DNA of 64,000 nucleotides, taken from contig JAVHMA010000015.1 of the NCBI GenBank assembly GCA_031081715.1, positions 1 through 64,000 on the forward strand, written 5' to 3'. Source of the DNA: Armatimonadota bacterium (GTDB taxonomy: Bacteria > Sysuimicrobiota > Sysuimicrobiia > Sysuimicrobiales > Humicultoraceae). Below the pieces are notes generated by a model. That model searched no databases, had not been told where the DNA came from, and saw nothing but the letters and a program-made list of their open reading frames with translations. Below are positions 4,653 through 34,116 of this stretch, in pieces; position 1 is the first letter of the stretch; each line of letters opens with the position of its first letter. The position numbers and the translations under genes are program-made.

Positions 4653-5795
4653 ATGACCGTGCCGGCTCGCCGTGCGCTGCTCGCGTTTCTGGCCGCCTGC
4701 GTGCTGCTCCTCGGCTGCGCGCGCCCGCCGGAGGCGCCGCCGGCGGCCGGACCGCCCGACGACCCGGGTGTGGACGAGCTCATGGGCGGAAGGGGCCGTC
4801 AGACGGTCGCCGAGCGCATCGGGCGCGCCGGGGGGACGTGGGACCAGTACGTGGCGTGGGGACGGGAGCTGTTCACTACGGGCTCCGTCGCGCGGCCGCC
4901 CGTCGGGCCCCGACCGTCGCCGCCGGTGTCGCGCTGGTACACCTGTGATCGCTGCCACAATGTCGCCCGGGAAGACCCCGTGCTCACGGTGCAGGACCCC
5001 GAGGCTCGCCTGCGCTACATCGCCGGTCGGCCCGGAATGGCCCTGCTGCAGGGAACCACGTTCTGGGGCGCGGTCAACCGCGAGACCTTCTACAATGGCT
5101 ACTACGCGCAGTACCACGACCTGTGCGTCCCCGAGACCACGACCGACCAGCCGGTGGCCAACGGCGGCCCCGACGACGCAGGACGCTGCCGGCCCGGCAC
5201 GCGCCGCATGGTGGCGACCAGCTTCGAGGACGCTATCCAGGTGTGCAGCGGGTACTGCAGCCTTGGTCGCTACCTGGTGCGCTGGGAGCTCGACGCCCTG
5301 CTCGCCTACTTCTGGACGCTGGAAGTGCGGCTCTCGGATCTCGGCCTGGCGCCCCACGACGAGGCCCTGGTGCGCCGGACCTTGCGTCCGCTGTCGCGGA
5401 GCCGCCGGCACGTGGAGGAGGCCCGCGCGCTCCTCGCGGGACGGTACCTGCGTCGGGCCGGGGATACGTTCCGCGGCGTGCCTGCTGTCAGGCGGCGGCC
5501 CGACGGGACGTGGGAGGTCGGCGCCTATGCCGACGGCCGGCGCTTTACCGGCGACCCGGCCCGCGGACAGGTCATCTACGAGAGGAGCTGCCTGCACTGC
5601 CACGACACCGCGGTCTCACCGGTTGCCGGCGGCGACCTGGCAGGCGACGTCGGTCAGTTCTTCCAGATCCTGGCCAAGGGCACGACCCAGAGCGACACCT
5701 GGTATATGCCCGAGTTCACGCTGGAGCGCCTCAGCCGCCAGCAGAGCGCCGACGTGCTGGCCTACCTGCGCCGCCTGCGGCAGCAGAACCGGTAG
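4653..5795 (+). CDS. Di-haem cytochrome c lipoprotein
   Basis: A 380-residue exported protein. The N-terminus is a lipoprotein signal ending in LLGC (Cys about residue 22). Two covalent haem-binding motifs are present, CDRCH at residues 98-102 and CLHCH at 313-317, the latter in a typical C-terminal cytochrome c domain with a YMPEF methionine-ligand region. The middle contains extra cysteines (C-VPE, RC-, VCSGYC) that may form disulfides. It probably carries electrons on the outer face of the membrane; the partner enzyme is not in the window. ATG 4653 is the first start that gives the signal peptide. The purine-rich GGGGAACC upstream is a weak ribosome site. Confidence 0.88.
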   Translation: MTVPARRALLAFLAACVLLLGCARPPEAPPAAGPPDDPGVDELMGGRGRQTVAERIGRAGGTWDQYVAWGRELFTTGSVARPPVGPRPSPPVSRWYTCDRCHNVAREDPVLTVQDPEARLRYIAGRPGMALLQGTTFWGAVNRETFYNGYYAQYHDLCVPETTTDQPVANGGPDDAGRCRPGTRRMVATSFEDAIQVCSGYCSLGRYLVRWELDALLAYFWTLEVRLSDLGLAPHDEALVRRTLRPLSRSRRHVEEARALLAGRYLRRAGDTFRGVPAVRRRPDGTWEVGAYADGRRFTGDPARGQVIYERSCLHCHDTAVSPVAGGDLAGDVGQFFQILAKGTTQSDTWYMPEFTLERLSRQQSADVLAYLRRLRQQNR

Positions 5796-5890
5796 TCGGG
5801 TGGCTTAGCGGTCGCCGATCCAGTCCTCGGCGCGGGGAAAGGACGCCTTGACGCTACCACCGCGGCAGGCGGGCGGGCAAGCGCCGGGGG

Positions 5891-25698: not shown

Positions 25699-27045
25699 AT
25701 GGAGCGTACCCGCACCCGTTACGTCTGCCAGGCCTGCGGCCACGAGTCCACCAAGTGGATGGGCCGCTGTCCGTCGTGCGGCGAGTGGAACACGCTGGTC
25801 GAGGAGCCGCAGACGCCACCGGGCCGGGCCGCCCGCCGGGCGGCGCCCGCCGAGCCGGTCTCGGTCGTCGACGTGGCGACGCCGCCGGAGCGGCGCATCG
25901 CCACCGGGATCAGCGAGCTCGACCGCGTGCTCGGCGGCGGGGTCGTGGTGGGCTCCGCGGTGCTGGTCGGCGGCGACCCCGGTATCGGCAAGTCCACGCT
26001 GCTGCTCCAGCTCGCCGACCGCCTGGCGCGCGCGGACGGCCGCGTGCTCTACGTAAGCGCCGAGGAGTCCGTCCGCCAGACCAAGCTACGGGCCGAGCGC
26101 CTCGGCGCTGCGGCGCCCGGGCTGCTTCTGCTGGCCGAGAACGATCTCGACGCGATCGTCGAGACCGCGACGCGCGTCCGGCCGGCGCTGCTGGTCGTCG
26201 ACTCGATCCAGACCGTCTACCGTCGCGATGTGGCCTCAGCCCCGGGGAGCGTGGCGCAGGTCCGCGAGTGCGCCGGCGTCCTCGTGCGGCTGGCGAAGGA
26301 GGAGGCGATCGCGGTCTTCATCGTCGGTCACGTCACCAAGGAGGGGGTGCTCGCCGGCCCGCGCGTGATGGAGCACCTGGTGGACACCGTGCTCGCGTTC
26401 GAGGGCGACCGGCACCACGCGTACCGCATCCTGCGCGGGTCGAAGAACCGGTTCGGGTCGACCAACGAGATCGGGGTCTTCGAGATGGGCACGGCCGGTC
26501 TGGTCGAGGTGCCGAATCCCTCGGCGGCCTTCCTCGCAGAGCGGCCGGCATCGGCGCCCGGCTCCGCCGTCGTTTGCGCGATAGAGGGGACGCGGCCGCT
26601 GCTGGTCGAGGTGCAGGCGCTCGTGAGCCCGACGCACTTCGGCATGCCCCGGCGCACCGCAGCCGGCGTGGACTACAATCGGTTGCTGCTGCTCCTGGCC
26701 GTGCTCGAGCGCCGCGCGGGCCTGCAGTTCGCCAGCCAGGACGCCTACGTGAGCGTGGCGGGCGGGATCACGGTCGAGGAGCCGGCGGCCGATCTGGGCG
26801 TCGCCGTCGCGCTGGCGAGCAGCCTGCGCAACCGGCCCATCGACCCGCACACGGTGATCATCGGCGAGATCGGGCTGGCGGGCGAGGTCCGCGCCGTGCC
26901 GCAGCTTGGCAAGCGCCTGGCGGAGGCGGCACGGCTGGGGTTCGCGCGGGCGGTGGTCCCGCGTGGCGACGGCGACGGGACGCCGGCGGGGATGGAACGG
27001 ATCGTGGTCACGCAGCTCGGTGAGGCGCTGCGTCTGCTGGGTTGA
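25699..27045 (+). CDS. radA: DNA repair protein RadA
   Basis: A 448-residue recombination helper. The N-terminal zinc finger is C-x2-C-x10-C-x2-C (YVCQACG, GRCPSCGEWNT). The RecA-like core has Walker A GGDPGIGKST, LLVVDSIQT, and the RadA-specific KNRFGSTNE motif. The C-terminal Lon-like domain contains QDAYVSVAGGI and IGEIGLAGEVRAV; the protease Ser/Lys pair is not active in this family. RadA drives branch migration in recombination. GGGAGG lies before ATG 25699. It stands alone here between the clpC terminator and a convergent gene 12 bases away; disA, usual next to radA, is missing. Confidence 0.96.
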   Translation: MERTRTRYVCQACGHESTKWMGRCPSCGEWNTLVEEPQTPPGRAARRAAPAEPVSVVDVATPPERRIATGISELDRVLGGGVVVGSAVLVGGDPGIGKSTLLLQLADRLARADGRVLYVSAEESVRQTKLRAERLGAAAPGLLLLAENDLDAIVETATRVRPALLVVDSIQTVYRRDVASAPGSVAQVRECAGVLVRLAKEEAIAVFIVGHVTKEGVLAGPRVMEHLVDTVLAFEGDRHHAYRILRGSKNRFGSTNEIGVFEMGTAGLVEVPNPSAAFLAERPASAPGSAVVCAIEGTRPLLVEVQALVSPTHFGMPRRTAAGVDYNRLLLLLAVLERRAGLQFASQDAYVSVAGGITVEEPAADLGVAVALASSLRNRPIDPHTVIIGEIGLAGEVRAVPQLGKRLAEAARLGFARAVVPRGDGDGTPAGMERIVVTQLGEALRLLG

Positions 27046-32748: not shown

Positions 32749-33387
32749 GTGGCGCTTGCGCGTCGGGAAGGGCTGGGCTATCACGAACTGGTAGACGAAG
32801 AGCTCGTCGATTGTGCGAAGGGCGGCGATGACCGCGCCGCCGAGTTTCTGATCGCGAAGTACCGCAACTTCGTCCGCGTCAAAGCCAAGGCGTACTTCCT
32901 CATCGGCGCCGACCGCGAGGACATCATCCAGGAAGGCATGATCGGCCTCTACAAGGCCATCCGTGACTTCCGTCGCGACAAACTCTCGTCGTTCCGCGCG
33001 TTCGCCGAGCTCTGCATCACCCGCCAGATCATCACCGCTATCAAGACGGCCACCCGTCAGAAGCACATCCCGCTGAACTCGTACATCTCGCTCAACAAGC
33101 CGATCTACGACGAGGACTCCGACCGCACACTGCTCGATGTCATCAGCAGCATCAAGGTCTCCGACCCCGAGGAACTGGTCATCAACCAGGAAGCCTCGGC
33201 GACGATGCGCGAGCGCATCCGCAAGAACTTGAGCGAGCTCGAGTGCAAGGTGCTTACCGCCTACCTGGAGGGCAAGTCCTACCAGGAGATGGCCAACGAG
33301 CTCAACCGCCACGTCAAGTCCATCGACAACGCCCTCCAGCGCGTCAAGCGTAAGCTCGAGCGCAACCTGGAAGGCGAGGACGCGTAA
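32749..33387 (+). CDS. sigH: RNA polymerase sigma-H-type factor
   Basis: A 212-residue sigma-70 family member of the SigH type. Region 2 contains LIAKYRNFVRVKAKAYFLIGADREDIIQEGMIGLYKA (given here only by start and end) with the core-binding DIIQEG; region 4 has LSELECKVLTAYLEGKSYQEMANELNRH with the HTH. In Bacillus SigH is needed for the stationary-phase and sporulation switch and for competence; its regulon here is unknown. GTG 32749 has GGAGGGG seven bases upstream. In Bacillus it is followed by rpmG, secE and nusG; here it is followed by an in-frame zinc-ribbon reading frame right after its TAA. Confidence 0.94.
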   Translation: MALARREGLGYHELVDEELVDCAKGGDDRAAEFLIAKYRNFVRVKAKAYFLIGADREDIIQEGMIGLYKAIRDFRRDKLSSFRAFAELCITRQIITAIKTATRQKHIPLNSYISLNKPIYDEDSDRTLLDVISSIKVSDPEELVINQEASATMRERIRKNLSELECKVLTAYLEGKSYQEMANELNRHVKSIDNALQRVKRKLERNLEGEDA

Positions 33388-33528
33388 GTCTACCGCCTCA
33401 CCTGTCCCTCCTGCCGGCACGTCTTCCTGCTCGTCGCACCCGCGGACGATGCCCCGCTGACCTGCCCGCGGTGCGGCCGGGCGTTCGTGCCCGCCGAGGA
33501 AGAGCTGCTCGATCCCGAGGACGACTGA
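33388..33528 (+). CDS. Zinc-ribbon reading frame directly after sigH, no standard start
   Basis: This 46-codon frame lies in the same phase as sigH, separated only by its TAA stop (33385-33387). It encodes a zinc ribbon: LTCPSCRHVFLL ... LTCPRCGRAFV, then an acidic tail EEELLDPEDD. Codon use is strongly GC at third positions, as in real genes. No ATG, GTG or TTG precedes the first cysteine pair. Options are initiation at GTC 33388 (GGCGAGG lies eight bases upstream), readthrough of the sigH stop, or a damaged start. I do not know its function; such ribbons occur as small transcription or ribosome-associated proteins. Confidence is modest because of the missing start. Confidence 0.55.
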   Translation, partial: VYRLTCPSCRHVFLLVAPADDAPLTCPRCGRAFVPAEEELLDPEDD

Positions 33529-33615: not shown

Positions 33616-34116
33616 ATGAGGACCGTGTTGGGCTGTGCGATCGTGGCTGCGGCGCTGCTCGTGGGCCTGGCGTCGGCGGCCGGGGCGGAGGGGCAGGCGT
33701 GGGATGGCGCCGACCATGGCGTGCTGGTCGCGCAACAGATTCCCCCCGCGGCGGTGCCCGCGACGCCCGGTGACCGCCTGCGCCGCGCGCTCGGGCTGTC
33801 CGAGGAGCAGGCCCGGCGCGTGGACCAGATCCTGACCGCGCACCGGGCCCGGACTGCGCAACTGCGCATCGACCTAGCCCGGGCGCACCTGGACGCGCGC
33901 GAGGCGCTGCTCGCGGCGTCGCCCGACCGGGCCCGGCTGGACGCGGTGGCGCGCCGCGTGGGCGAGCTGCAGGGTCAGCTCACCGCGGCCCGCTACGGGA
34001 TGCTGGTCGAGGTGCGCGCGGTGCTGACGCCAGAGCAGTGGACGCGGTTCCAGGGCATGATGCTGCGAGGTCCGGCCGTCGGCCCGGGGTCCATGCGGGG
34101 CCGCCTGCGCCGCTAG
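33616..34116 (+). CDS. Spy/CpxP-like periplasmic protein
   Basis: A 166-residue exported protein. Signal peptide MRTVLGCAIVAAALLVGLAS-type cleaved near AGAEG; the mature part is helical with LGLSEEQARRVDQIL, an RARTAQLRIDLARAHLD helix and RAVLTPEQWTRFQGM, the LTPEQ repeat seen in Spy, CpxP and ZraP. Such proteins bind unfolded proteins or metals in the periplasm. GAGGAGGG precedes the ATG. The preceding 87 bases (33529-33615) contain no clear promoter. Confidence 0.85.
   Translation: MRTVLGCAIVAAALLVGLASAAGAEGQAWDGADHGVLVAQQIPPAAVPATPGDRLRRALGLSEEQARRVDQILTAHRARTAQLRIDLARAHLDAREALLAASPDRARLDAVARRVGELQGQLTAARYGMLVEVRAVLTPEQWTRFQGMMLRGPAVGPGSMRGRLRR

Follow-up and report, generated by a model that had tools for sequence, protein, structure and literature searches.

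A conserved zinc-ribbon gene with a probable GTC or ATC start codon abuts the sigH stop codon in a family of Sysuimicrobiota

Directly behind the sigH gene of an Armatimonadota bacterium lies an open reading frame that is probably a separate gene for a 46-residue zinc-ribbon protein (the ribbon, below); it would start with GTC, or with ATC in one related genome, no more than 1 nt from the sigH stop codon, and would be made by re-initiation after SigH has been translated. From the comparison of sequences, we give this reading a probability of about 75%. It draws on a conserved protein with a conserved start position, the absence of a canonical start codon that could be used, a frame relative to sigH that varies among close relatives, and weak start codons of infC. 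The DNA analyzed (the window) is the stretch of 64,000 nt from position 1 of contig JAVHMA010000015.1 (assembly GCA_031081715.1); its genome is designated G000 and its family f1, and the features of the junction are collected in Table 1. Statements attributed to papers by PMC number refer to excerpts of those papers.

Table 1. Features at the junction of sigH and the ribbon gene (positions in the window)
Feature	Position	Strand	Description
sigH	32749..33387	+	212 aa; starts with GTG and ends with TAA; first gene of the putative coupled pair
GAGG, Shine-Dalgarno-like	33376..33379	+	within the 3' end of sigH; 8-nt spacer to GTC
sigH stop TAA	33385..33387	+	directly abuts the first ribbon codon
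GTC, inferred noncanonical ribbon start	33388..33390	+	from alignment with the start codons of relatives
Zinc-ribbon small-protein gene (predicted)	33388..33528	+	46 codons plus TGA; motifs R3, CPxC, CPxC, EEExxDPED

The product of sigH matches two SigH equivalog profiles of NCBIfam, NF006148 (367 bits; cutoff, 208) and TIGR02859 (351 bits; cutoff, 294.8), and orthologues are present in f1 and in the order. The original prediction described 46 open codons with two CPxC pairs and an acidic end behind the sigH TAA, with no ATG, GTG, or TTG ahead of the first Cys pair, and both points hold. Positions 33388 to 33525 read VYRLTCPSCRHVFLLVAPADDAPLTCPRCGRAFVPAEEELLDPEDD, the stop codon TGA occupies 33526 to 33528, the product has the form VYRLTCPSC...CPRC...EEELLDPEDD, and codon 34, a GTG beyond the Cys codons 6, 9, 26, and 29, is the sole ATG, GTG, or TTG in this frame. 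The gene-like codon use that it also described is real but by itself weak: this frame scores 0.24 bits/codon and the remaining two sense frames -0.65 and -0.18, yet one antisense frame reaches 0.25. It is conservation in the order (35 of 43 genomes), together with a dN below dS in 10 of 10 pairs within f1, that raises the open reading frame above chance. Other start-less, coding-like open reading frames occur in the window, for example at 26089 to 26235 and 5619 to 5804, both on the minus strand. At its left end (1 to 1366), the window carries a 5S rRNA gene and the 3' portion of a 23S rRNA gene. The product of the gene after the ribbon (33616 to 34116) is a Spy/CpxP-like Metal_resist protein (PF13801, 57.3 bits); in G005, another f1 genome, a moaA-like sequence directly follows the ribbon instead.

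A sequencing error at 33388, suggested beforehand as a way in which the observation might collapse, cannot be its only cause: in Armatimonadetes bacterium CSP1-3 (G007; LDXQ01000001.1, locus L056), the junction is independently TAA GTC TAC CGC as well, and five f1 genomes agree. The sigH gene of G007 is itself split into two overlapping frames (frames 2 and 1; L056:2363-2994) near codon 60, which reflects either an assembly error or a real frameshift.

To judge from its distribution, the ribbon represents a genuine family of small proteins in the phylum known as CSP1-3 or Sysuimicrobiota (PMC11604079; neither "zinc" nor "start codon" nor "sigma factor" occurs in the main text of that paper). 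A protein search of 61 genomes gave a match in 40 at an E value of ≤0.01, and in the order (43 genomes, G000 included) 35 matched at an E value of <1e-5. The order members outside these 35 are G001, G002, G003, G008, G009, G010, G016, and G033, with G003 and G033 giving weak partial matches only. For G001 and G003, which belong to f1, neither sigH nor a full ribbon was found, and a DNA query, run without a positive control, found nothing either. A scan of public genomes, made with one peptide pattern as the query, so that absence elsewhere does not follow, returned 15 loci in metagenome-assembled genomes titled Armatimonadetes (CSP1-3 included), Terrabacteria group ANGP1, and, in one case, Bacillota. 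The 23 ribbons that were aligned, of 30 ribbon loci, have R3, both CPxC pairs, and a DPxD end in common; R3, C6, P7, C9, C26, P27, C29, P35, D42, P43, and D45 are invariant among them. Outside family f7, sigH adjoins the ribbon in 23 of 24 carriers (G021 and G024 being counted from separate inspection of their loci), and the contig of the remaining one, G032, ends too early to tell. All 11 ribbon loci of f7, each about 3 to 4 kb, are without sigH.

The alignment places GTC at the initiator position, ahead of the invariant R3. Among 30 ribbons outside f1 (28 parsed automatically; G021 and G024 read by eye), the aligned codon is ATG in 15, GTG in 10, TTG in 4, and CTG in 1, whereas within f1 it is GTC in G000, G004, G005, and G007 and ATC in G006. 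A canonical codon thus stands at this position in 29 of 30 ribbons outside f1 against none of five inside (Fisher's exact test, which ignores shared ancestry, P = 1.8e-5). The single CTG start (L014:1498-1500, in G039), 3 nt past a sigH TAG, is the sole ribbon outside f1 that does not begin with ATG, GTG, or TTG. In G000, G005, and G007, the stretch from the last in-frame stop to the first CPxC contains no canonical start; in the ribbon frame of G006 and G004, the nearest one upstream lies within sigH, 16 and 125 codons back, respectively. As in the infC and sigR type of gene, the start position holds a codon other than ATG, GTG, or TTG that is conserved in relatives, here in all five f1 carriers. 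Of the two possibilities originally offered, readthrough of the sigH stop or initiation at GTC, these data support the second, with start codons at exactly the aligned position in relatives. An ATG-started ribbon gene in relatives had been named as a finding that would speak against the proposal; such genes exist outside f1, and none was found within it.

The f1 ribbons begin -1 nt (G004, TAGTC), 0 nt (G000 and G007, TAAGTC), or +1 nt (G005, TGACGTC; G006, TAAGATC) from the sigH stop, so that the stop/start overlap or gap of a few nucleotides that marks termination-reinitiation pairs is found in all five carriers. Elsewhere outside f7 the distance is 1 to 175 nt and the ribbon has its own start. 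ATG is absent from all 10 ribbons that lie within 6 nt of a sigH stop, drawn from three families only and not phylogenetically independent, and is present in 15 of the 25 others. We read this bias as coupling that may relax, or regulation that may favor, weak starts.

A GAGG motif lies 7 to 9 nt upstream of the ribbon start in four of the five f1 members (G000, G004, G005, and G007), and G006 has GAAG motifs instead. The motif may be mere sigH coding sequence; it is also present in G011, though the ribbon is 30 nt away there. Pairing of the sigH tail with the anti-Shine-Dalgarno sequence amounts to -0.3 to -2.2 kcal/mol in the genus g3 of f1, which is without the ribbon, versus -5.5 to -7.5 kcal/mol in the f1 ribbon carriers, a contrast that lends weak support to a Shine-Dalgarno role; order members with a distant ribbon pair equally well, down to -9.8 kcal/mol. 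A search for initiator anticodon arms with any anticodon yielded 8 matches, in 7 of 11 f1 genomes, all of them with CAU; an initiator tRNA altered to a GAC or GAU anticodon was accordingly rejected, within a search that arms with other flanking bases would escape. With a CAU initiator tRNA, efficiency on GUC could be very low.

The start of infC served as a control for weak starts in the order. All 28 readable loci have an apparent weak start, ATC in 22 and ATA in 6; the codons were identified by eye from their position, -5 or -7, to a conserved R-[VI]-N. Of 40 infC matches, 30 loci were fetched, and all of these but G014 and G015 were parsed. For G023, G026, and G030, a GTG also falls within the 15 displayed infC codons. 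The apparent ATC/ATA start runs through the order (loci L071 to L100), and annotation tools likely mis-start infC there. An ATT or ATC start of infC is known to be conserved across a phylum, and the ATC of the G006 ribbon is the same type of codon. Unlike the ribbon, infC codes for the inspector of start codons itself and is thereby autoregulated.

The reading that we prefer would work as follows. After finishing SigH, ribosomes or 30S subunits would stay near the stop codon, aided by the GAGG in the 3' end of sigH, and the initiator tRNA would re-initiate on GTC, the ribbon protein presumably starting with fMet. IF3 represses noncanonical starts; because it disfavors GUC and AUC, the output of ribbon protein would be low, tied to the translation of SigH, and sensitive to IF3. 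Translation of the ribbon, its re-initiation or coupling, its control by IF3, and any role together with SigH are what we infer from these features. Re-initiation drops steeply with distance from the stop, and at about 20 nt almost none is left (PMC10666635); it has been studied in a reporter in which GAGG had been added and the spacer was 1 nt (PMC2268962), and published re-initiation on GUC relied on a mutant initiator tRNA (PMC2268962). More tentatively, and at somewhat less than even odds, re-initiating ribosomes might accept GUC or AUC in any frame, so that placement at the stop would substitute for a proper start and the ratio of ribbon to SigH would be set low by IF3.

Initiation de novo at GTC on the GAGG, as in Streptomyces sigR, with the proximity of the sigH stop incidental, is unlikely. 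In its favor, GAGG lies at 7 to 9 nt in four of five members, infC uses ATC or ATA in the order, and the GTC of sigR functions with an extensive ribosome-binding site of its own (PMC5472188). Against it, the five f1 ribbons all start at -1 to +1 nt from the stop, the range in which re-initiation is strongest (PMC10666635); ATG is missing from the 10 ribbons within 6 nt of a sigH stop, which are not phylogenetically independent, and present in 15 of the 25 others; and G006 is without GAGG.

Still less probable is a decaying gene, which lost its start in the f1 ancestor, is untranslated, and was later deleted in g3. The ribbon is indeed missing from all four g3 genomes (G002, G008, G009, and G010), which keep sigH at 95% identity, so that SigH does not need the ribbon there, and two pairs that involve G005 show weak constraint (dN/dS of about 0.7 to 0.8). 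The four Cys codons, R3, and the DPED end have nevertheless been retained in five genera without an in-frame stop; in a neutral simulation on a star tree with a simple substitution model, retention of the four Cys codons and an open frame in five lineages had a probability of about 1e-3 at a branch length of 0.1 and of 2e-6 to 5e-6 at 0.2. The dN value is below dS in every f1 pair, and GTC or ATC stands in all five carriers with position and stop spacing nearly fixed, all of which speaks against decay. After sigH, the g3 loci (L032 to L034 and L036) have the apparent end of a moaA gene on the opposite strand, and their SigH tail reads LEDDDA or LEDDA in place of a LEGEDA-like end.

Readthrough or frameshifting at the stop, which would yield a SigH with a C-terminal zinc ribbon beside the ordinary SigH, is highly improbable: the ribbon does continue the sigH frame right after TAA in G000 and G007 with no other start, and CCC TGA C in G005 resembles the RF2 +1 frameshift site, but close relatives have frames 0, 0, +1, +1, and -1 and would need readthrough and both kinds of shift, TAA is three of the five stops, and the ribbon is independently started outside f1 and unlinked to sigH in f7. 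A fusion requires a constant frame; two of the five f1 ribbons are in frame with sigH, two are in the +1 frame, and one overlaps by 1 nt, which argues against it. A partial sigH tree (429 to 441 nt; weakly supported, with outgroups falling among f1) pairs the in-frame G000 with G005 and the in-frame G007 with G006, and the frame thus seems to have changed more than once. Proximity to the stop has been kept while the frame varied, which argues against readthrough and for initiation at GTC or ATC. The SigH with a zinc-ribbon tail that was originally proposed is therefore unsupported, three of five ribbons being out of frame and others lying up to 175 nt downstream with a start of their own, and no support was found for the redox- or zinc-sensing sigma tail suggested with it.

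The putative initiation at GTC or ATC after SigH has a close natural counterpart in Streptomyces sigR, with a GTC start under repression from IF3 (Feeney et al. 2017, PMC5472188). There GTC is found in 32 of 34 species and GTT in the other two, and infC starts with ATC (PMC5472188). The two cases share a clade-conserved GTC start in a sigma-factor operon and, in the same organism, an infC gene with ATC. They differ in phylum and protein family and in the gene that carries the weak start, which in Streptomyces is the sigma gene, with ATG on the downstream rsrA, and here is the ribbon abutting the stop of a sigH gene that starts with GTG; the effect of IF3 was shown there and is predicted here. 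Termination-reinitiation is described for overlapping or abutting genes (UGAUG, AUGA; PMC6728339, PMC10666635, and PMC12548453), and the ribbon resembles these pairs in its spacing of -1, 0, or +1 nt and in a Shine-Dalgarno-like motif within the upstream gene. The natural cases in the excerpts of these three papers use NTG starts, in contrast to GTC or ATC. At the level of titles and abstract openings, we found no description of the ribbon gene or of a GTC start abutting an upstream stop.

Modeled with AlphaFold2 (mean pLDDT, 78.8; pTM, 0.50), the ribbon gave no Foldseek match in the PDB at an E value of ≤0.001, and no function follows from the fold. The best, weak structural match was the amino-carrier protein LysW (E value, 0.78; probability, 0.80), and the LysW profile also matched weakly (E value, 0.1). 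Like LysW, the ribbon is a small, acidic zinc ribbon. LysW proteins end in a conserved C-terminal Glu (EDWGE), whereas the ribbon, located beside sigH, ends in DPED followed by a residue that varies (D, E, A, V, G, or L), and LysW was rejected on this ground. In Firmicutes, sigH is followed by rpmG, the gene of ribosomal protein bL33, which the ribbon resembles in its length of about 46 to 50 aa, its two Cys pairs, and its place after sigH. A true L33 (rpmG) is encoded elsewhere in G000 (C8, 84.6 bits), and no Pfam L33 match was among the best 25 of 57 matches, so bL33 was discarded. RsrA, encoded downstream of sigR as its partner, is a zinc-binding anti-sigma factor, and RsrA-like ZAS anti-sigma factors carry an H-x3-C-x2-C motif; by eye, none of the 23 aligned ribbons has a His at that spacing before CPxC. 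An FmdB-type zinc ribbon was rejected, with scores below the cutoffs for PF09723 (26.8 versus 34.4 bits) and TIGR02605 (25.6 versus 31.3 bits). Among the best 25 of 57 matches, general zinc-ribbon profiles stayed below their cutoffs, except for Trm112p, a marginal pass (22.7 versus 22 bits) whose best stretch is 10 residues. From gene order, a partner or modulator of SigH or of RNA polymerase is the natural guess.

The ribbon belongs to a protein family that has no name and adjoins sigH in nearly all carriers outside f7, and its start would be the second natural clade-conserved GTC start beside that of sigR, the sole one found in print in the literature excerpts, and in a different phylum. Gene finders largely assume ATG, GTG, or TTG, and the conserved ribbon is likely missed in f1. 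The junction offers a clean test case of whether post-termination ribosomes tolerate codons that are rejected by de novo initiation. If the tentative proposal is true, this would be a sigma-factor operon under the control of IF3 that arose separately from that of Streptomyces sigR and has its weak start on the partner of the sigma gene, not on the sigma gene itself.
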